In this document: positions 48,688-58,104 of the stretch, one piece after another | Position numbering within the stretch: the first letter of the stretch is position 1 | How the letters are laid out: every line of letters starts with the position of its first letter | Assembly: GCA_015493615.1 (NCBI GenBank) | Contig: WGCV01000066.1 | Coordinates: 1 to 61,396 of the forward strand | Origin: Melioribacteraceae bacterium | GTDB taxonomy: Bacteria > Bacteroidota > Ignavibacteria > Ignavibacteriales > Melioribacteraceae | DNA length: 61,396 bases | Reading direction: 5' to 3' | Program-made: the position numbers and the translations under genes | The notes under the pieces: generated by a model | The model's database searches: none | Told to the model about the DNA's origin: nothing | What the model saw: the letters and a program-made list of their open reading frames with translations, nothing else

Positions 48688-49233
48688 TCAACCTTCAATT
48701 TTTTCGGGAGTTAATCTTCCGACAATTTCACCTACGAAGAAAGAGAAAATAATCAGCATTATTGTAAAAACTATTGTAAATCTTAGTCCGAAGTAAAATA
48801 CCATCACAGGCATAATCTGAAGTTTGACCGCGCGGTTGTACATAAACACTGTGATTAACTTGTTTGTCATTCCGTGTCGTTTTAAATCGTGCAGCAGCGG
48901 GAACCAAACATAAACCGGACCAACCGAAAGTATTCCTACTACGGAAGTAACCGCCAAAGCTTTTATTCCGGATTTATTTCCGAAGATTTTTTTAGCTTTC
49001 TCCGGTGTTATCAGCAGCTCAGAAAGAAACATAAGAAGAAAAATTAAGAATAAGTAAGGAGCAAACTGTAGTATCATCTTCCAAAGTGTATTTGCCGACT
49101 TAACAAAAAGCTCGTTGTCGGCAAAATAAATTACGGCATAAACAAGAATCATCAACAGAGAAAGAAGCGTTGAGGTTTTTCCTTTCCCGCTGTTTTTTTT
49201 CTGCTCGGACGATATATTATTTTTATCTACCAC
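48688..49233 (-). CDS. Permease half, DUF318/ArsP-like (C-terminal half)
   Basis: 181 residues with about four membrane helices. Contains KALAVTSVVGILSVGPVYVW, the second conserved hydrophobic repeat seen in DUF318 permeases (ArsP/YraQ group), then FPLLHDLKRHGMTNKLITVF. The other half is encoded by the gene immediately upstream (49227-49658), with which it overlaps by seven bases; in most bacteria these are one protein. The substrate is unknown; ArsP relatives export organoarsenicals. Confidence 0.75.
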   Translation of the reverse strand: MVDKNNISSEQKKNSGKGKTSTLLSLLMILVYAVIYFADNELFVKSANTLWKMILQFAPYLFLIFLLMFLSELLITPEKAKKIFGNKSGIKALAVTSVVGILSVGPVYVWFPLLHDLKRHGMTNKLITVFMYNRAVKLQIMPVMVFYFGLRFTIVFTIMLIIFSFFVGEIVGRLTPEKIEG

Positions 49234-49658
49234 AGATGAATAATTAAGTTTATTAATATCGCCAGAATAATGGAGGCAAAAAACGAAACCGTATTACGGA
49301 TAAAAGCAAACTTTTTACCGAAGTAATGAATTTCAACCGGAAGCTGTACAATCCCGACTGTTACCCACGCTAACAGAAAGGCAGTAATCGCTACAATGCT
49401 GATTCCCTCCTTTACCAACTCGCCCCCGATTAAATAGCTCCCGATCGGATTCCCGAATGAAATACTTCCGAGTAAAGCGCCCGTAAATGAATCGACAACC
49501 GGATTGTTGATAAAAAGAGAAGAATAAAAATTATGAGGAATTATATTTTGCAGTAATGCCACAACCGAAAAAATTATGAATATAATATAGAGCGCGGAGG
49601 AAAATTGCTTCCAAGTTTTTTTCAGCGCCTTTATTGATTTGTTTTCTGATTCGGGCAT
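49227..49658 (-). CDS. Permease half, DUF318/ArsP-like (N-terminal half)
   Basis: 143 residues with about four membrane helices. GALLGSISFGNPIGSYLIGG is the first conserved repeat of the family, analogous to the GILSVGPVY of the partner protein, so both halves of the pseudo-symmetric permease exist as separate chains. A short gap (4 bases) separates it from the DUF59 gene upstream. The two halves must assemble together to work. Confidence 0.75.
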   Translation of the reverse strand: MPESENKSIKALKKTWKQFSSALYIIFIIFSVVALLQNIIPHNFYSSLFINNPVVDSFTGALLGSISFGNPIGSYLIGGELVKEGISIVAITAFLLAWVTVGIVQLPVEIHYFGKKFAFIRNTVSFFASIILAILINLIIHLW

Positions 49659-49662
49659 TAAA

Positions 49663-49968
49663 TTATAACTTCCAATTAGCTTGTGAAAGCGAGAAAAATT
49701 TTGTCCTTTCTTCTTCCGTCATTTCGGCGAGTTCCACGCTCATTTTGGTCGCTTTTCCTTTAAGCGCTACGCCGAGGGAGTTAAGAATCATATCTCTGAT
49801 TTCAACGGGAATGTTCAGCATGGGAAGAACCAGCGTAAAAGAAACGGCTCCGGTTTCCTCGTTTAATTTGATGTCGCGAAGCATTCCCAATTCGTCAAGA
49901 GTATTGGCAATTTCGGGATGCTCAACGCTGTTCATAAGATTTTCTATTTCTTGTTGAGTTACGTTCAT
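49663..49968 (-). CDS. DUF59/MIP18-family protein lacking cysteine
   Basis: 101 residues. The N-terminal pattern HPEIANTLDELGMLRDIKL is that of iron-sulfur carrier DUF59 (MIP18/PaaD-like) proteins, and the strand VSFTLVLPMLNIPVEIRDMI follows. Where typical members have a Cys (LTSPGCP-like), this protein has LPMLNIP, and no cysteine at all is present, so iron-sulfur loading through a Cys is unlikely. First gene of a three-gene operon with the two permease halves. Confidence 0.8.
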   Translation of the reverse strand: MNVTQQEIENLMNSVEHPEIANTLDELGMLRDIKLNEETGAVSFTLVLPMLNIPVEIRDMILNSLGVALKGKATKMSVELAEMTEEERTKFFSLSQANWKL

Positions 49969-50439: not shown

Positions 50440-51573
50440 GTGGAGACTTCATTAAAAAATAACCAGATTAGAGTAGGAAGTTTTTTCGGAATACCTGTTA
50501 CATTTGATTTCTCTTGGTTTCTGATTGTAATTGTTCTCGCTTGGATTTTAGCGGTCGGCTATTTCCCAAAGGAATATAAAGGCTGGACTGAGATCCAATA
50601 TTGGGGCGTGAGTATCGTTACTTCCGTTTTCTTTTTCTTAAGCGTTGTTCTTCACGAATACGGACATTCAATTGTCGCAAAAAAATATAATTATGAAGTT
50701 AAAGGAATAAAACTTTTCATCTTCGGCGGCGTTTCCGAGATTGCTGTTGAACCGAAAAATCCAAAGGAAGAGTTTTTAATTTCAATTGCCGGACCGGTAG
50801 TTTCGCTCCTTCTCGGCGGAATTTTTTACTATGCGGCAACCGCTTTTAACGATAAAGGGATGATTTATGCTTTCGCTCATTATCTCGGCTGGATTAATAT
50901 TATTCTCGGATTATTTAATTTGCTTCCGGGATTTCCTCTCGACGGCGGAAGAATTTTTAGAGCTATTGTTTGGGGAATAACAAAAGATTATAAAAAAGCT
51001 ACTCACTGGTCGGCTACCGCAGGGCGTTTTATCGGGTTTTCCCTTATTTTTGTCGGCTTAATGGAAATGATGGCGGGATTCGTAACCGATGGAATTTGGG
51101 TGGCTTTAATCGGCTGGTTTTTGGAAAGCGCAGCTTTCGCGCAGCTTCAGCAGCAGGAACTTAAGAAACTCCTTTCGGGGCATAAAGTCGCCGACGCATA
51201 TTCCCGCAATTATATGCTTGTTCCCGATGACATTACGATACTGGAATTTTTTGACGGAAATGATTTTTACAAAAACAGAAGTTTTTTCTTTGCTGAGAAT
51301 AACGGTGAAATTACCGGAGTTTTTACTTTACAGGATTTGTTGAACATCCCGAAGTCGAAATGGGAAAGCGTTAAAATCAGCGATGTTATTATACCTATTT
51401 CCGATACGATAAAAACAACTCCCGATACTCCGCTGGTTGACGCGCTGAAAATTATGGACGAAAACAGCTTTAATCAGCTTCCTGTTTTTGAAAACGGAAA
51501 GTTAATCGGCGTACTTTCGCGTAAATCTTTGGTAGCTTATTTATCGCAAATGAATACGCACGCGAAAAGATGA
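50440..51573 (+). CDS. Site-2 protease-like (M50) metalloprotease with CBS domains
   Basis: 377 residues with a GTG start. The active site is HEYGH (72-76) in a membrane helix, with the second metal-site motif LLPGFPLDGGRIFRA (about residues 160-174). About six membrane helices in the N-terminal 230 residues, then two CBS domains (about 245-370), the first degenerate. Site-2 proteases of this kind cut membrane-bound regulators such as anti-sigma factors; CBS domains usually bind adenosine ligands and could gate activity. It is 47 bases upstream of the sensor gene, so it may belong to the same transcript. Confidence 0.92.
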   Translation: METSLKNNQIRVGSFFGIPVTFDFSWFLIVIVLAWILAVGYFPKEYKGWTEIQYWGVSIVTSVFFFLSVVLHEYGHSIVAKKYNYEVKGIKLFIFGGVSEIAVEPKNPKEEFLISIAGPVVSLLLGGIFYYAATAFNDKGMIYAFAHYLGWINIILGLFNLLPGFPLDGGRIFRAIVWGITKDYKKATHWSATAGRFIGFSLIFVGLMEMMAGFVTDGIWVALIGWFLESAAFAQLQQQELKKLLSGHKVADAYSRNYMLVPDDITILEFFDGNDFYKNRSFFFAENNGEITGVFTLQDLLNIPKSKWESVKISDVIIPISDTIKTTPDTPLVDALKIMDENSFNQLPVFENGKLIGVLSRKSLVAYLSQMNTHAKR

Positions 51574-51620
51574 GCTTCTTACTTTATTTTTCTGATTTTT
51601 TTTCGATAATAAATAACTGA

Positions 51621-53594
51621 ATGAACATTAAAGGTCTTATGGAAGAGAATAAAGAACAGCAATACGGAACAAGGACAAAAAAGCTAATTGAGTTTAGTAA
51701 AAAAGCTCCTTTTTTTACATCTGTTGCAAGTTTGTTTTATGAAACGACTAACGTTTTATATTCCGAACTTAAATACAGAATGCTTTTCTTTTCGCTCGCT
51801 GAAGATGAGTTCGGTTATCCTGAGATTTACACCTTTGAAGGAAAAGATCTTGTTACCGGAAACGGTTCGTGTCAATGTTATTCCAAAGCCCAAATTATAG
51901 AGTTTTCGCAACTGCTTAATTCCTTTGACCGTCCGGTATTACTGCCGAAAGAAAGAATTGCTACCGGGATTAAGAAATCGGGAAAGGAATTGCCGGAGTT
52001 TCTTCCGGAAACCGCTTTAACTACTCCGATTAAAGATCGCTTCGGTGAAAAACTCGGTTTTATGTTTATCTGTTCGGAAGAGCGTCTGGACAGGGAAGAT
52101 TTGGAGTTCTTTGTTAACACTTCGGAAATTGTTGGCGCCGGATTAAGCGTTTTGGAAAAACTGGAACAAGACGATACTTTTTTTGACGACCATGTGGCGC
52201 ACAGTCCGATAGGTTTTATGAAAATTTCGGATGACTATAAAATTCTTTCCGTTAACGATAAGTTTGCCGAGATTTTGGGTTTTAAAAACACAAAGGAATT
52301 TTTTAGCGATAAAAACCAAACTTATGTTAAAAGATTGGAACGCTCAAGGAATTTAATCCAAGCCCTTCTTAAGTTGAAAAAAAGTCCCGCGCTTTCCGTC
52401 GAAAGAGAAATGCTTGCAATTGACAGATACAGGAATAAACGCTGGCTCGAAATTCACGGGCGGTATCATGTTTCCGATAGTTTTGCCAATAATTTTTTTG
52501 AGATTCTCGTTGTTGATATTACCGATTTAAAGAAGCTTGAGAGAGAGTTCTCCAACTTGCTTATTTTACAGGACAGTTTACTGAACCTTTCCAAAGACGG
52601 AATTGTTATCGAAGATGAAAACGGAACTATTCTCGGAATAAACCGGATACTAACCGACAGATACGGCAAGTCCCCCGATTTTCTTATCGGAAAACATGTG
52701 AGCGTCCTCGGCGGCGACAAGAGAACGATTCAGGAAAATATTCGAATTCTACAAGACGGCAAGCCTCATATTCAGACGATTGAACACCTTACTCCCGACG
52801 GAAAGAGATATTTTTATGAACTTTCGGAGCAGTTAATAAAATTCCCGAACGGTAATAAAAGAATTGTGTCGTATTCAAGGGACATTACAAAACAGGTCGG
52901 GTTCGAGCAGAAAATCATTAAGCTGAAAACCGATTTACAGAAGTACAAAAATTTCCAGAGTTTATTTGTAAAAACGGTCTCGGATAGGAAAACCGAATTT
53001 TTTGAGCTGATTGATAACATCAATCAAATTTTAGCTCAAGCGAAGCGCCTTGACGGCGCGGAAGAAATTCTTACCAAAATAAATTTGTTTAAAGAAGAGG
53101 CGATTAAAGAAAAAATCACTTTGGATTTATATACGGCAATAAATTTTGCTTTTTCAGATAAGGAAAGTTATAAAAAATCGACATTTGAATTGAATTTTAT
53201 TCTCCGGCGGAGTTTTTTCCCGAGAATCAAAAAATATCTTGAAGTATTCGGGGCGGAATTTAATGCCGAGATTACCGCAGAGGATTTCGTTATTGAAGCG
53301 GAGAAAGAAGTTTTACTCAACCTTTTAAAGCTGATAATCGAATCGCTTATTAATAATAAAAAGTTTTCGAGAATTAATTTTACGGTAAAAGAAGGAAATC
53401 GGCGGAACAGAATTATTGAAATTACTCTTGAAGAAGATGTTTTAAGCGAAGATTTGTTAGGGAAAATTTTTACGCCGCCAAGCCCGTTAAAGGAATATTA
53501 TGTTTATATTCCCCAATTATTTTCTCTTGCCGAGAGGTCCGAAGTCGTTCTGCAGTCGGGAGAGAAAACAAAAATAAAGATAAATATTTTTTAG
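51621..53594 (+). CDS. GAF-PAS-PAS sensor with degenerate histidine-kinase end
   Basis: 657 residues, no membrane segment. Order: a GAF-like region (about 20-185); PAS 1 (about 190-305, HSPIGFMKISDDYKILSVND); PAS 2 (about 315-430, with LSKDGIVIEDENGTILGINR, ending SYSRDITKQVGFEQ); then about 225 residues that should be DHp plus ATPase. In that part no H-box His is seen, the N-box is reduced (EVLLNLLKLIIESLINNKKF), and G1 and G2 are missing; only an IFTPPSP piece recalls the F-box. It is probably a pseudo-kinase that signals by protein contact. An ATG at 51639 behind AAAGG is an alternative start. First gene of a tight cluster to 57208. Confidence 0.8.
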   Translation: MNIKGLMEENKEQQYGTRTKKLIEFSKKAPFFTSVASLFYETTNVLYSELKYRMLFFSLAEDEFGYPEIYTFEGKDLVTGNGSCQCYSKAQIIEFSQLLNSFDRPVLLPKERIATGIKKSGKELPEFLPETALTTPIKDRFGEKLGFMFICSEERLDREDLEFFVNTSEIVGAGLSVLEKLEQDDTFFDDHVAHSPIGFMKISDDYKILSVNDKFAEILGFKNTKEFFSDKNQTYVKRLERSRNLIQALLKLKKSPALSVEREMLAIDRYRNKRWLEIHGRYHVSDSFANNFFEILVVDITDLKKLEREFSNLLILQDSLLNLSKDGIVIEDENGTILGINRILTDRYGKSPDFLIGKHVSVLGGDKRTIQENIRILQDGKPHIQTIEHLTPDGKRYFYELSEQLIKFPNGNKRIVSYSRDITKQVGFEQKIIKLKTDLQKYKNFQSLFVKTVSDRKTEFFELIDNINQILAQAKRLDGAEEILTKINLFKEEAIKEKITLDLYTAINFAFSDKESYKKSTFELNFILRRSFFPRIKKYLEVFGAEFNAEITAEDFVIEAEKEVLLNLLKLIIESLINNKKFSRINFTVKEGNRRNRIIEITLEEDVLSEDLLGKIFTPPSPLKEYYVYIPQLFSLAERSEVVLQSGEKTKIKINIF

Positions 53595-53604
53595 GTTATT
53601 ATAT

Positions 53605-54507
53605 ATGATTGAACCGGAACGCCTTACAATATTAGTTAAAGATATAGATAAAATCGAGTTGGTTAAAAACAAGATTTTAAGAATTTTAAGGGAAATTCCC
53701 GTCACGGAACAGCAGTACAGAATGTATGTTGACACCGGCGACAGAACCGTAATACACATTGTGCTCGAGAATGTTTTAGTTGAAAGATTTATTTACGAGG
53801 CGTTAAATCATCAAATCACTTTTGTGGCTACTAACTCGAAAGTCAGGCGAATTCTTGATATGCTTGCAATCGACTTTGAAGATAAAATGGGGAAGGACAA
53901 AGTCGGGAAGGGGCGAAAAACAAGTTCCGGAGATGACGACGATGAATATTTTGATATTAAAGACTTTGACGAATCGACATACAAAATGGGGAAAATTCTT
54001 TCTCTTACCGAGCCTGACGATATAATTGATAATGTTGAGGATTTGCAGAAAGAGGGAGAGAAAATAATCTCCGAGACAACCGAGATTCTGCGGAAAACTG
54101 TTGAAGTTGAAATAGAGAAAAGCGAGAATGTTACCGTTAAGGACGGAGCGGAAAAATTTGAAAACGCTCTGAAACGCCTTAAAGAAATAATGACCGAAAC
54201 CATTTTGACAAGAAAAGAGTTGGCTGATTTGTCGTATAAAGCCGGATTAAGTTTTTTTAATTTGGTAAAAGGAAACGATAAATACAACGACGATTTGAAA
54301 GAGCTGATTGAGAATGAAAATGTTGATGATTATTTAAGATTAAAAGCCGCGGAGACTTTAATCGAAAATATGAGAAAACAGCATTACCGTCTCGAAGAAA
54401 TAAAAAAGGCAATGGATATTGAAGTTTTATCGGCTCTTTACGGTAAGCAGAAAGATAATTTGGAAAATAATGAGATTTCACAAATAAAAGCTCTATTGGA
54501 ATTTTAG
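53605..54507 (+). CDS. Uncharacterised protein, first of two tandem paralogs
   Basis: 300 residues, soluble. N-terminal domain (about 5-90): ERLTILVKDIDKIELVKNKI, a helix and strands ending ITFVATNSKVRRILDML. A very acidic linker (107-123, DDDDEYFDIKDFDE). C-terminal helical domain (about 200-300): YKAGLSFFNLVKGNDKYNDD followed by DDYLRLKAAETLIENM. The next protein shows the same two anchors (VLATTNEIKKKV; RQAGLSAVIIAKNNPKYHYE), so the two are diverged duplicates. No known domain recognised. It starts 10 bases after the sensor gene. Confidence 0.75.
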   Translation: MIEPERLTILVKDIDKIELVKNKILRILREIPVTEQQYRMYVDTGDRTVIHIVLENVLVERFIYEALNHQITFVATNSKVRRILDMLAIDFEDKMGKDKVGKGRKTSSGDDDDEYFDIKDFDESTYKMGKILSLTEPDDIIDNVEDLQKEGEKIISETTEILRKTVEVEIEKSENVTVKDGAEKFENALKRLKEIMTETILTRKELADLSYKAGLSFFNLVKGNDKYNDDLKELIENENVDDYLRLKAAETLIENMRKQHYRLEEIKKAMDIEVLSALYGKQKDNLENNEISQIKALLEF

Positions 54508-54508
54508 A

Positions 54509-55432
54509 ATGAAGTTTGAAACAATTTCTTTTGTACTCGAAAAAAAAGAAGAAATAGACGAAGTAAGACAAGCGCTTGTTGAATTCAAAAACGAATTTCC
54601 TCAAGCTAAACTGGGGAAACCGAAATTCGGCGAATTAAGCAAAAAAATAATCATAACATTTAAAGTCGAAAACGGTTACACTTCCGAGCTGATTAAGATT
54701 TTCACAATGCACTACATAAAAGTTCTTGCGACTACAAACGAAATTAAGAAAAAGGTTTTCGAAGCGACCTCGTCCTATGTTGAAGCTCTCGCAAAACAGG
54801 ATAAGGGCTGGGACGAACTTAAAATCGAACAGCCGGAAATGAGCGTTTCAGAACTTGAGGTTTTCGCCCAGAAAGGGAATTACGAAGAAGTTATCCGCAT
54901 TGCGGGCGATTTATTCCACTACGGCGAAACGATAGTTGAAAAAGCGAGAGATGTGTTGGATATCAGTCTGCAAAAGGCAATTGAAAAGGCGGTTAAAGAC
55001 GCGGAAAAATTTCCCGACCACGCGGGAAAATCGATTGGCGAACTTATTAAAATGGCGTCGAGCCGGAAAGTTAAAAGCTACAATAAGATTAACATAATGC
55101 GTCAAGCGGGGCTTTCGGCCGTAATTATCGCAAAAAACAATCCCAAGTATCATTATGAATTGATAAAAATCACAAACAACACACATCTCGATAATTTCAT
55201 AAATGTTTCCGCTTTTATTGCTTTGGGCGAAATAATTATGCCGAATCCCGAAAAATTTTCATTGGAATTGGACAACGCGCGTAAATTGCTGAACCTGAGG
55301 TGGTTGGAAATTGCTTACGATGTAGCCGAGAAACTTCTCGATTCGAATCAGCAGAAAAAATTCAAAGAGTTTATGAAATTCCTAAAAGAGAAACGAAGCG
55401 AAAAACCGATTTCTTCAGGAGCTAAGGAATAA
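54509..55432 (+). CDS. Uncharacterised protein, second of two tandem paralogs
   Basis: 307 residues, soluble, one base after the first paralog. N-terminal domain (about 3-90) FETISFVLEKKEEIDEVRQA, then KIIITFKVENGY and IKVLATTNEIKKKVFEA. Middle (about 110-180) a helical insertion with repeat-like ELEVFAQKGNYEEVIRIAGD. C-terminal domain (190-250) with INIMRQAGLSAVIIAKNNPK, YELIKITNNTHLDNFINVS. The C-terminus is Lys/Glu-rich. Alignment with the first paralog gives shared AGLS, K.N.KY, and N..xDxx..A..L positions. Function unknown; possibly partners of the upstream pseudo-kinase. Confidence 0.75.
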   Translation: MKFETISFVLEKKEEIDEVRQALVEFKNEFPQAKLGKPKFGELSKKIIITFKVENGYTSELIKIFTMHYIKVLATTNEIKKKVFEATSSYVEALAKQDKGWDELKIEQPEMSVSELEVFAQKGNYEEVIRIAGDLFHYGETIVEKARDVLDISLQKAIEKAVKDAEKFPDHAGKSIGELIKMASSRKVKSYNKINIMRQAGLSAVIIAKNNPKYHYELIKITNNTHLDNFINVSAFIALGEIIMPNPEKFSLELDNARKLLNLRWLEIAYDVAEKLLDSNQQKKFKEFMKFLKEKRSEKPISSGAKE

Positions 55433-55434
55433 AT

Positions 55435-56250
55435 ATGGTTCGGTTTTTTCTATTATATTTTCTTTCTTTTGCGTTGGTTTCCGGGCAGAATCTTACGCTT
55501 GTAAACTCAGTCGGGGATTTTGACAACGCCTCCTCCTTCACATTTTCCCCTTCCGGATTTTACGTCGCCGATAAGGGAAATAACACTGTGGTAAAAATTG
55601 ATTCAGCCGGAAACGTGGAGAAATTTATCGGAGGTTACGGTTGGGACGAATCCTCTTTCGACGATCCCGCCGATATTTTTTCAACGACGCTTCGCGTTTA
55701 CGTCGCCGATAAAGACAACAACCGCGTTCAGATTTTCGACAGATTTCTTAACTACCTTTTTTCAATAAAATCGGACGAGACATTTTATCCTTCCGGGTGC
55801 GCGGTGTCGGCTCAGGGAGATATTTTTATTCTTGACGCCGATAATGTTTCGATCCTGAAATATGATATGTCGGGACATTTTATCGACAACATCGGGGAGA
55901 TTTCATCCGGCGAGTTTACGCTTGAGGCGCCGAAAGCGATCGCCGTTTCAAAGGACAATTATCTTTATGTCGCCGATAAAAACCGTATTCTTATTTTTGA
56001 TTTGTTCGGAAGCGGGAAGTCCATAATCAAGCTCAAAATCACTCCGGAAAACATATCCGTTAACTCGGGGCTTATCACGGTCGCGACTAAGAAAAAAGTT
56101 TACATGATTGATTTGAAACAGACTAAAATTAAAGAGCTTGATCTTTCCAAAAAGTTGAACGACGAGGAGATTGTTGACGCTCATTTTGAGGGTTCCAAAC
56201 TTTATGTGCTCACGCAAAATCAAATTTTGGTTTACTCTGTTTCAAAATGA
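55435..56250 (+). CDS. Exported NHL-type beta-propeller protein
   Basis: 271 residues with a signal peptide (MVRFFLLYFLSFALVSGQN). At least three or four NHL-like blades are visible through repeated YVADKGNNTVVKID, VYVADKDNNRVQIFD, and LYVADKNRILIFD, each with the same VADK(x)NN(R/T)V core. Such propellers bind partner proteins, RNA or ligands; here it sits in the envelope. Starts two bases after the second paralog and overlaps the DUF2085 gene by four bases. Confidence 0.85.
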   Translation: MVRFFLLYFLSFALVSGQNLTLVNSVGDFDNASSFTFSPSGFYVADKGNNTVVKIDSAGNVEKFIGGYGWDESSFDDPADIFSTTLRVYVADKDNNRVQIFDRFLNYLFSIKSDETFYPSGCAVSAQGDIFILDADNVSILKYDMSGHFIDNIGEISSGEFTLEAPKAIAVSKDNYLYVADKNRILIFDLFGSGKSIIKLKITPENISVNSGLITVATKKKVYMIDLKQTKIKELDLSKKLNDEEIVDAHFEGSKLYVLTQNQILVYSVSK

Positions 56251-56705
56251 AAAAAGTTCGTCTGTTAATTTTTCTGCTGATCTTAGTTTGGAACCTCGGA
56301 AATTTTATTCAAGCGCTTGCCTTGCTTAATCATATTTTTTTATTTGCGTTTCCCGTCTTAAAACCGACTTACCACCTTGTTTGTCATCAGCAGCCGGATA
56401 AATTAATTCATATTTTCGGGACTTCCACATTGCTTTGCGCACGTTGTACGGGAATATATCTCGGCGGACTTGCCGGAGCGTTTGCGCTGATTTTTACCGG
56501 AAGAAAATTAAGTTTGCCGACAAAATATCTTCTCTATTCTTCCCTCCCGATGTTTTTGGATGTCGGATTTGTGATGCTCGGCGTTTATTCATATTCTAAG
56601 CTGATTGCATTATTAACCGGCTTGCTTTTAGGTTCGGTCGGAATTGTTTATCTTACCGAACTTATTGAAAAATTTTTATCTCAAAATCGGAGTTTTACAG
56701 AGTGA
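56247..56705 (+). CDS. DUF2085 membrane protein
   Basis: 152 residues with about four membrane helices. The family core is intact: YHLVCHQQPDKLIHIFG, then STLLCARCTGIYLGGLAGAF. The cysteine and histidine positions (CHQQP, CARC) suggest a metal site, but the role of DUF2085 is not known. Start overlaps the propeller gene (ATGA); the next gene starts with GTG in its stop (GTGA). Confidence 0.9.
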   Translation: MKKVRLLIFLLILVWNLGNFIQALALLNHIFLFAFPVLKPTYHLVCHQQPDKLIHIFGTSTLLCARCTGIYLGGLAGAFALIFTGRKLSLPTKYLLYSSLPMFLDVGFVMLGVYSYSKLIALLTGLLLGSVGIVYLTELIEKFLSQNRSFTE

Positions 56706-57208
56706 AACGATTATATCCTGTTCTTATCGCCGGATTTTCAGCCGGAGTTTTTGAAATTGTGCCGATGGCAAAAAGTTTAAGCTGCTGCCTGATAATTCCC
56801 ACCGCGGCTTTGTTTGCTCTTTATCTTGAGATGAAATCAACCAACAGACCGGAACCGTTTGATATTTCAATCGGAGTAAGATTCGGATTATTAACCGGAA
56901 TTTTTGCCGCGCTATTCGGCGTTACAATTGAAACAATCGTTACTCTGATTACCAAAACAAACGATTTGGTCGAATCTTTCCCTCAGATGCAGCAGATGCT
57001 TGAAACTTTTCCCGTGGATAAAATGACCCGCTCGGAAGTCGTTGGGATGCTTAAAACGGTTGCCGAACAAATTAGAACCGCGGGGTTTGCTCCGTTATAT
57101 ACTTTTGCTTTGCTGGTTAATACTTTGATTGTAAATTCTATTTTCGGAATTATCGGCGGAATGATCGGAGTGAAATTATTGAACAACAAATATTACGGCG
57201 GGAAGTAA
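56702..57208 (+). CDS. Integral membrane protein, unknown
   Basis: 168 residues with about four membrane helices, GTG start overlapping the DUF2085 stop by four bases. Landmarks: FSAGVFEIVPMAKSLSCCLI (two adjacent Cys), FGLLTGIFAALFGVTIETIV, an exposed helical loop LVESFPQMQQMLETFPVDKM (membrane-external or cytoplasmic), and NSIFGIIGGMIGVKLL at the end. The layout (three N-terminal helices, a hydrophilic loop, one C-terminal helix) is like DUF4199 proteins, by eye only. Last gene of the cluster; no terminator is visible downstream. Confidence 0.7.
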   Translation: MKRLYPVLIAGFSAGVFEIVPMAKSLSCCLIIPTAALFALYLEMKSTNRPEPFDISIGVRFGLLTGIFAALFGVTIETIVTLITKTNDLVESFPQMQQMLETFPVDKMTRSEVVGMLKTVAEQIRTAGFAPLYTFALLVNTLIVNSIFGIIGGMIGVKLLNNKYYGGK

Positions 57209-57412
57209 ATTTTACATTGGGAAAGCCATTCGGAATTTTCTATTTTGTCGAAATATTAAACTCAAAATTGTCAATAGGCTGAAAATTTCTAATGACCGCC
57301 ATAAGGAAAAGGTTGAGATAAGTTATTAAAAAACAATAAGTTGACTAACGTAAAAATGTGAAGTTTAGACAAAAAACACATAAGAAAATCTTACATATCA
57401 AACTTGTTCTAC

Positions 57413-57576
57413 TTGTAGCACAGATTGATTAGTGAGCTTGCGAACGGTCAATCTGTGGCAATAAATAATTTAGCCTTATGTTTGTTTTCTCGCAGATTGC
57501 AAGCAATCTACGCTACAAAAAACGGTTTATTAGAGTTTTTAGAGTGGAAAAATTTTTCTAATGACAATTTTGGGTT
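57413..57576 (+). repeat. Dispersed repeat family A, copy 2
   Basis: Same orientation as copy 1: TTGTAGCA at 57413, the CAGATTGA / TCAATCTG hairpin, the CAGATTGC / GCAATCTA hairpin, CGCTACAA at 57511-57518, then the AT-rich tail with AATGACAATTTTGGG to about 57576. Part of the 896-base spacer 57209-58104, which holds this and the periodic repeats that follow but no gene. Confidence 0.8.
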
Positions 57577-57598
57577 AAATTTTGTTTTACCTCGAAAT

Positions 57599-57633
57599 GT
57601 GAGACGTAAAACGTAAGACGCGAGACGTAAAAT
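57599..57633. repeat. 7-base-period tandem repeat
   Basis: Five consecutive 7-mers: GTGAGAC, GTAAAAC, GTAAGAC, GCGAGAC, GTAAAAT. The period is exact; the bases vary. Confidence 0.6.
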
Positions 57634-57650
57634 ACAATCCTAATGTTGTA

Positions 57651-57752
57651 ATTCTGAGTCCCTCAAGAAGCGGGACGAAGAATCTCGAAGTTAGAATTTG
57701 CTCATATCCTACATTCGTCATTCTGATCCCGCCTTGGCGGGAGAAGAATCTC
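57651..57752. repeat. Family C hairpin modules in direct orientation
   Basis: Two units, both in the ATTCTGA...AGAATCTC direction: 57651-57685 with a GTCCC / GGGAC arm, and 57717-57752 (GTCATTCTGA...) with a CCCGCCTTGGCGGG palindrome at 57728-57741. Elsewhere the units face each other. Confidence 0.6.
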
Positions 57753-57853
57753 CTGTTCAGCATTTTCACCGATCTTTATTTTGTGAACCTTTCTCAGCTA
57801 AAGCTAATAAAATAGGACGTTGATGACACGGATTTATTATGATTTACACGGAT

Positions 57854-57881
57854 AAGAAACGAGAAACGTAAGACGAAAATC
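57854..57881. repeat. 7-base-period tandem repeat
   Basis: AAGAAAC, GAGAAAC, GTAAGAC, GAAAATC in register. Same family of 7-mers as 57599-57633. Confidence 0.5.
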
Positions 57882-57948
57882 CTATTATTCTTCCAATAAA
57901 AAAATAGAAAGCAGATTACGTGAATTTACGCAGATGAGAATTTTGGTT

Positions 57949-58039
57949 GTGAAACGAAAGATGCAAGCCGGAAAACGTAAGTAAAATTATCCAATCAACC
58001 AACCAAGAACCAAGAACTAAGAACCAATGACCAATCCCC
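57949..58039. repeat. Two further 7-base-period stretches
   Basis: 57949-57983: GTGAAAC, GAAAGAT, GCAAGCC, GGAAAAC, GTAAGTA. Then 58005-58039 in a second style: AAGAACC, AAGAACT, AAGAACC, AATGACC, AATCCCC, preceded by CCAATCA and ACCAACC. Both keep a seven-base register while bases drift. Confidence 0.55.
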
Positions 58040-58104
58040 CAAGACGGACTAATAACCGCTCATCCGATTTTTATAACTGAACCTCTTGGTTTTGTCGCCG
58101 TGCG

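Follow-up and report, generated by a model that had tools for sequence, protein, structure and literature searches.

What do two adjoining, diverged copies of one gene do between a gene for a sensor-like protein and a set of envelope genes? The question is raised by a six-gene cluster in a Melioribacteraceae bacterium (Bacteroidota; Ignavibacteria; assembly GCA_015493615.1), whose genome comprises 3.15 Mb in 67 contigs. The stretch analyzed here, called the window, is contig WGCV01000066.1, positions 1 to 61,396, at its full length of 61,396 nucleotides. The cluster fills positions 51621-57208 with six open reading frames (ORFs) on the + strand, encoding a PAS-domain sensor-like protein, the tandem paralogs A1 and A2, an NHL-repeat protein, a DUF2085 protein, and a further membrane protein. 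We found that A1 and A2 belong to a family for which the libraries searched contain no description and which, with one exception, is confined to one order, and that a minority of its members directly follow signalling genes. Our best reading, a tentative one of somewhat less than even confidence, is that A1 and A2 are signalling adaptors, that is, non-enzymatic cytosolic regulators of a family almost entirely restricted to that order.

The genes are closely packed, with gaps of 10 bases between the sensor gene and A1, 1 base between A1 and A2, and 2 bases between A2 and the NHL gene, followed by two 4-base overlaps. A gene for an M50/site-2 protease (S2P) on the same strand (50440-51573) has its 3' end 47 bases upstream of the sensor gene. 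This layout had been described in a first-pass annotation made from the sequence alone, and it was recovered in full: six same-strand genes, gaps of at most 10 bases, overlaps, and the S2P gene 47 bases upstream, each where that annotation had placed it.

The A1-A2 pair and its family

The two paralogs and their predicted domains are as follows.

53605..54507, + strand: A1, diverged paralog, 300 amino acids (ORF, homology, structure model; member of a long-branch clade of four)
53605..53829, + strand: A1 N-domain, about residues 1-75, ACT-like fold (model, fold comparison)
53971..54501, + strand: A1 helical C-domain, about residues 123-299 (model)
54509..55432, + strand: A2, paralog nearer the family core, 307 amino acids (ORF, homology, structure model)
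54509..54733, + strand: A2 N-domain, residues 1-75, ACT-like fold (model, fold comparison)
54737..55399, + strand: A2 helical domain, residues 77-297, with the family motifs AG, NN...N.KA, and LN.RWL (model, conservation)

The claim that A1 and A2 are paralogs holds. A pairwise BLASTP between them reaches E 3e-9 with coverage of the C-half only, and A2 as a query against its own genome matches A1 at E 1e-5 across A2 residues 8-294. A profile of the family matches A1 far more strongly than single-sequence searches do, A1 being among its training rows. Both anchor regions proposed earlier are present in the two proteins, one in the N-domain (FVATNSKVRR in A1, VLATTNEIKK in A2) and one in the C-domain (KAGLS...KGNDKY in A1, QAGLS...KNNPKY in A2). 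The first-pass annotation had recognized no family for the pair, and profile and sequence searches agree: neither protein has a match above cut-off in Pfam or NCBIfam, the PADLOC defence models give 0 matches for all six cluster proteins at E up to 1, and the best PDB sequence stands at E 0.3. Moreover, a Pfam scan of 44 family members yielded no consistent family match among the 25 shown of 77 families, and the literature searched, under limited wordings, held no description of the family.

The distribution of the family is narrow. Of 97 near genomes searched with A2, 36 yielded relatives, a count that includes the window's own genome. Within the class, a 44-member profile matched 37 of 391 genomes, of which one lies outside the order (G181) and another is probably a chance match (G389). 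Across the phylum, the same profile matched 14 of 395 genomes, all inside the class. We collected 52 distinct members, all but one from a single order, counting once the loci L082-L085, which repeat contigs of G001-G003 and G014. No fusion to a known domain occurs among the matches listed (full members reach 361 amino acids). The sole member from outside the order (G181, L089:7543-8322) consists of the helical domain only, covering profile positions 112-296, with the ACT-like domain undetected. Three members (L086, L087, and L088) are longer, at 344-361 amino acids, and in the latter two the N- and C-domains are apparently split by a long linker, while the copy at L115:1816-2708 (G301) contains stops and is readable only as separate pieces. 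Two weak matches were dropped as chance, a 389-amino-acid ORF at L091 (cysteine-desulfurase-like by eye) and a 464-amino-acid ORF in G389 (E 7.5e-4).

In the family tree, the four A1 proteins group together, and the branch leading to their clade is so long (2.5 changes per column) that its placement is unsure; the four A2 proteins form a separate clade. All 48 non-A1 members carry the asparagine found at A2 position N262, against one of the four A1 proteins, and the family residues R264 and W265, present in 37 and 39 of the 48 non-A1 members, respectively, occur in none of the four A1 proteins. Since A1 has lost family residues that A2 keeps (R264 and W265 and, in three of the four A1 proteins, N262), it looks like a specialised duplicate, a long-branch derivative in which conserved C-domain residues were lost. 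Judged by its substitutions, the A1 gene is not decaying, since a 93-codon fragment common to the window and its near relative G004 carries 0 nonsynonymous changes and the ratio of nonsynonymous to synonymous rates (dN/dS) between G001 and G003 is 0.23.

Structure prediction gave similar domain layouts for the two proteins. The A2 model (predicted local distance difference test, pLDDT, 86.5; predicted template-modelling score, pTM, 0.60; nine sequences) has a beta-alpha-beta-beta-alpha-beta order in residues 1-75, followed by the helical C-domain, and the A1 model (pLDDT 76.6, pTM 0.52) resembles it, with a low-confidence linker at residues 92-122. The predicted A2 N-domain superposes on YdjB (Z 9.3, 67 residues, 1.9 Å) and AcuB (Z 9.2, 70 residues, 2.2 Å), and that of A1 on AcuB (Z 9.7, 71 residues, 2.5 Å); the aligned portion of AcuB is its ACT domain. 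For predicted domains of so common a fold, shared by ACT and related ferredoxin-like domains, these scores are modest. At E up to 5, neither A1 nor A2 has a row for any Pfam ACT model, nor is ACT among the 25 families shown of 77 for the 44 members. For the helical C-domain, the best hit, with Z 9.0 over 116 residues at 3.2 Å, is to one chain in an entry for the 26S proteasome, and a Foldseek search of the A2 model against PDB and viral libraries returned no match at E 0.001 or better. Rows for 14-3-3 proteins in that search, of low probability and with template-modelling (TM) scores of 0.13-0.20, were set aside.

Signalling genes beside family members

The protein encoded directly upstream of A1 contains the following features.

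51621..53594, + strand: sensor-like protein, 657 amino acids, with two PAS domains; C-terminus kinase-like but degenerate (Pfam PAS_9, E 3.7e-17, and PAS_8)
52575..52895, + strand: second PAS domain of the sensor, residues 319-425 (Pfam PAS_9, PAS_4, and PAS)
52908..53591, + strand: possible degenerate kinase region of the sensor, residues 430-657 (hhalign, boxes by eye)

It had been annotated as a GAF-PAS-PAS pseudo-kinase. Its two PAS domains are clear in Pfam, the GAF domain finds no support in Pfam (no GAF row at E up to 5), and the pseudo-kinase label is plausible as a prediction of a degenerate kinase. Pfam reports no HisKA or HATPase match for the sensor, including its C-terminal fragment alone, and the alignment of the kinase region with five kinases of related genomes is very weak (hhalign, single-comparison E 0.041, probability 1.3%, 56 columns). 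The N and G boxes, which are ATP-binding motifs, are not recognisable in this faint alignment, and in place of the H-box histidine the window's sensor apparently has Asp and that of G004 Glu, as matched by eye to AHDIR in a stretch outside the hhalign alignment. Residues 430-657 are under purifying selection (dN/dS 0.18). Orthologs at E 1e-20 or better occur in 2 of 58 genomes, namely, the window's genome and G004, and in G004 the junction with A1 is kept.

The position of a sensor gene just ahead of A1 is not unique in the family. Taking as a tight pair any co-directional upstream gene within 50 bases, we found signalling genes in 5 of the 9 tight pairs that end in a family member, compared with 10 of 161 other tight pairs at the same loci, or about 6% (one-sided Fisher p 3e-4). 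The five partners, all confirmed by Pfam, are the window's sensor (10 bases), a PAS-PAS protein (L036, 27 bases), a histidine kinase (L038, 22 bases), a receiver protein (L046, 8 bases), and CheW (L110, 15 bases); the other four cases are L035, L040, L051, and L115. The classifier behind this count was seeded with some of these genes and could miss background genes, so 120 of the 161 were also put through a Pfam scan, which placed 3 HATPase_c, 3 PAS, 2 CheW, and 2 receiver domains among the 25 commonest families. At an assumed background of 10%, the chance of five signalling genes in nine is by arithmetic about 0.001. In addition, two members have a looser link to CheW, at 109 bases in L097 and at 194 bases from a CheW fragment in L100. 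They form one clade with the L110 member, and the members from the window, L038, and L046 stand apart in the tree.

These pairs argue for a signalling adaptor. The ACT-like domain of A1 and A2 would then probably be a pairing module and the helical domain probably a partner-binding module, with A1 and A2 joined through their ACT-like domains in a hetero-oligomer. The PAS-PAS sensor, presumably no longer able to act as a histidine kinase, would be read by the pair via direct contact and not by phosphate transfer, and A2, with its conserved helical residues intact, would relay the state of the sensor onward.

Several points weigh against this reading. Only nine family genes have a tight upstream partner from outside the family, one of them broken (L115), and most members have none. 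The member in L036 joins the CheW-linked clade weakly (support 80/83), and the five cases may represent fewer independent events. The tight-pair test was selected after the loci had been seen, and its classifier was seeded partly with the family's own neighbours; independent seeds recovered the kinase, receiver, and CheW proteins and missed the two PAS-only ones. The window's sensor was not found in G001, G002, or G003 at E 1e-20, and the helical C-domain has no fold match beyond the chance range of helical proteins. Moreover, signalling genes are in no excess among all immediate neighbours of family members (88 genes with 6 HATPase_c, 5 PAS_4, and 3 receiver domains) over genes three to five places away (122 genes with 7, 8, and 10, respectively). 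The neighbour set is the 92 genes listed minus four NHL genes of the genus cluster; the controls are 130 genes drawn from 206 of under 1300 amino acids, minus eight (five genus cluster genes, an antisense ORF at window position 49634, L097:1713-2027, and L041:10587-14000). The commonest immediate neighbour is enolase, at 10 of 88. Thus, the earlier idea of an adaptor-like pair in signalling finds backing in the tight upstream partners and none in the immediate neighbours taken as a whole.

The enolase genes bring in a different explanation, namely, that family members are regulators of a housekeeping or metabolite-sensing kind, in which the ACT-like domain binds a small molecule, and that their signalling neighbours are incidental. 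The predicted fold of the N-domain and the ten enolase-adjoining members, from nine genera and including one in the window's own genome, speak for it. ACT domains bind ligands at the turn between strand 1 and helix 1, however, and the conserved glycine of the family (G41, in 32 of 48 members) sits between strands 2 and 3. The strongest conservation lies in the helical domain, and the excess of signalling genes in tight pairs also points away from metabolite sensing, which we consider rather unlikely. The enolase-adjoining members are in L041, L043, L048, L050, L098, L103, L104, L109, L112, and L113, with enolase and family genes divergent in nine of the ten loci; L043, on contig C57, is the locus from the window's genome.

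Three layers of the cluster

The remaining genes of the cluster and the protease gene upstream are as follows.

55435..56250, + strand: NHL-repeat propeller protein (Pfam NHL, E 2.7e-14; signal-peptide-like N-terminus by eye)
56247..56705, + strand: DUF2085 membrane protein (Pfam, E 5.2e-19)
56702..57208, + strand: membrane protein, weakly DUF4199-like (E 0.00019, 22.3 bits, below the Pfam cut-off of 32.3)
50440..51573, + strand: neighbouring M50/S2P-type protease with CBS domains (Pfam Peptidase_M50, E 2.5e-26)

The first-pass annotation saw in these genes a single route from the sensor across the membrane, with the protease as a possible part. In such a route, the A1-A2 pair would control, or be controlled by, the NHL-DUF2085-membrane unit. 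The order of the genes offers some grounds for it: the NHL gene adjoins A2 in all four genomes that show A2, with the DUF2085 and membrane genes next in three of them, and A2 and NHL overlap by 14 bases in G001, 14 in G003, and 8 in G002 (2 bases apart in the window), so their translation may be coupled. Across genomes, however, the cluster resolves into three layers with different distributions, and we judge one trans-membrane route to be improbable.

The first layer is the NHL-DUF2085-membrane unit. In other genera, all loci read (16 of 16) have its three genes grouped in that sequence and facing ExbB, ExbD, and TonB-like genes, with no family gene within the 3.0-6.6 kb read upstream of NHL. 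These loci are the best-scoring matches to the membrane gene, 11.9-15 kb each; Pfam confirmed ExbB, ExbD, TonB_C, DUF2085, and NHL in one of them, and the others were assigned by similarity. They comprise L145:4854-8712 (G021) and L146-L160, often with an extra membrane protein of about 100 amino acids in between. Conversely, none of the 48 loci around family matches outside the A1-A2 loci contains an NHL, DUF2085, or membrane gene (L090 and L091 are counted among the 48 but lack a true family member). The membrane gene has homologs in 53 of 58 genomes, compared with 36 of 97 for the family and 2 of 58 for the sensor. The unit is old and separate from the A1-A2 pair, and its arrangement suggests a place for DUF2085 and NHL in an energised envelope system; in the window's genome, the ExbB-ExbD-TonB-like genes are on another contig.

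The second layer is the A1-A2 tandem followed by NHL, found in four of five genomes of the genus (G000, G001, G002, and G003). The DUF2085 and membrane genes come next in three of these, the exception being G002, where the membrane gene is on a different contig and has no DUF2085 neighbour. The fifth genome, G004, is broken here: one contig end carries the sensor and A1 genes, a second carries those for NHL, DUF2085, and the membrane protein, and A2, not found in this genome, presumably falls in the contig gap.

The third layer, the PAS-PAS degenerate kinase and the S2P gene, is limited to the window's genome and one close relative, and S2P orthologs at E 1e-30 or better were found in 2 of 13 genomes. 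Conservation thus gives no backing to the protease as part of the path, and S2P is probably not part of the system. The expectation that relatives keep the gene order was borne out for A1-A2-NHL and failed for the sensor and S2P genes, and the single route was not upheld as a conserved system.

Layers of such different distribution would also be expected of operon drift, in which unrelated genes come to lie on a common transcript with no joint function. We regard this as quite unlikely: the A1-A2 tandem is kept in the genus despite the fast divergence of A1, the sensor-A1 junction is preserved in G004, and the sensor is under purifying selection, with dN/dS of 0.05-0.14 against G004 for the S2P, sensor, DUF2085, and membrane genes. 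The 47-base spacer between S2P and sensor (51574-51620) has four differences from G004, counted by eye, which is less divergence than at the synonymous sites of the flanking genes (synonymous rates of 0.33 and 0.37); it may be the seat of a promoter or other signal. Past the cluster, about 0.9 kb (57209-58104) holds no called gene of at least 80 amino acids and several short near-repeats such as aaacgtaagacg. Upstream, minus-strand genes at 49227-49968 encode an iron-sulfur assembly P protein (Pfam, E 2.1e-6) and, with a score under the Pfam cut-off, part of an ArsP-like permease.

In the adaptor reading, the NHL-DUF2085-membrane genes would be an envelope unit of older date, added to the operon within this genus and probably on a common transcript. 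Its occurrence elsewhere on its own argues that it does not need the A1-A2 pair, and the overlapping A2 and NHL genes make a signal-carrying role in the same path possible. A bolder version would have A1 and A2 found an order-specific class of adaptors, with ACT-like pairing and helical receptor-binding domains, that couples to several kinds of sensors, including kinases whose phosphorelay was lost, and in which the hetero-pair of Melioribacter took over an envelope unit split from its ExbBD-TonB genes; this we think unlikely. What remains after the tests is an undescribed, order-specific family with one tandem pair and hints of a lean towards signalling. Such a family would open signalling in Ignavibacteria to experimental test. 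If A1 and A2 do bind a degenerate kinase directly, they would exemplify contact instead of phosphate transfer, with the diverged duplicate as a natural control. The order-wide unit facing ExbB-ExbD-TonB is a separate lead for DUF2085, which is scarcely covered in the literature searched.

Comparison with known systems

The closest functional parallel would be CheW and other kinase-linked scaffolds, which A1 and A2 may resemble if the family is a non-enzymatic link beside sensors, some members lying directly behind CheW genes. However, A1 and A2 do not match CheW, their predicted architecture differs, and no search made identifies them as CheW homologs. The sensor shares two PAS domains with PAS-containing histidine kinases and at most a trace of their kinase layout, differing in the absence of a HisKA or HATPase match and in the apparent change of the H-box histidine to Asp or Glu.

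By predicted fold, the N-domain of A1 and A2 resembles ACT-domain regulators such as AcuB, the small subunit of acetolactate synthase, and the regulatory domain of aspartate kinase, with Z up to 9.7. A1 and A2 differ from these regulators in lacking a Pfam ACT match, in joining the N-domain to a helical domain and not to CBS domains or an enzyme, and in not conserving the canonical ligand turn. The predicted stacked helices of the C-domain recall helical repeats of the HEAT, ARM, and PCI types, but its best Z lies within the chance range, and it has no consistent Pfam repeat match.

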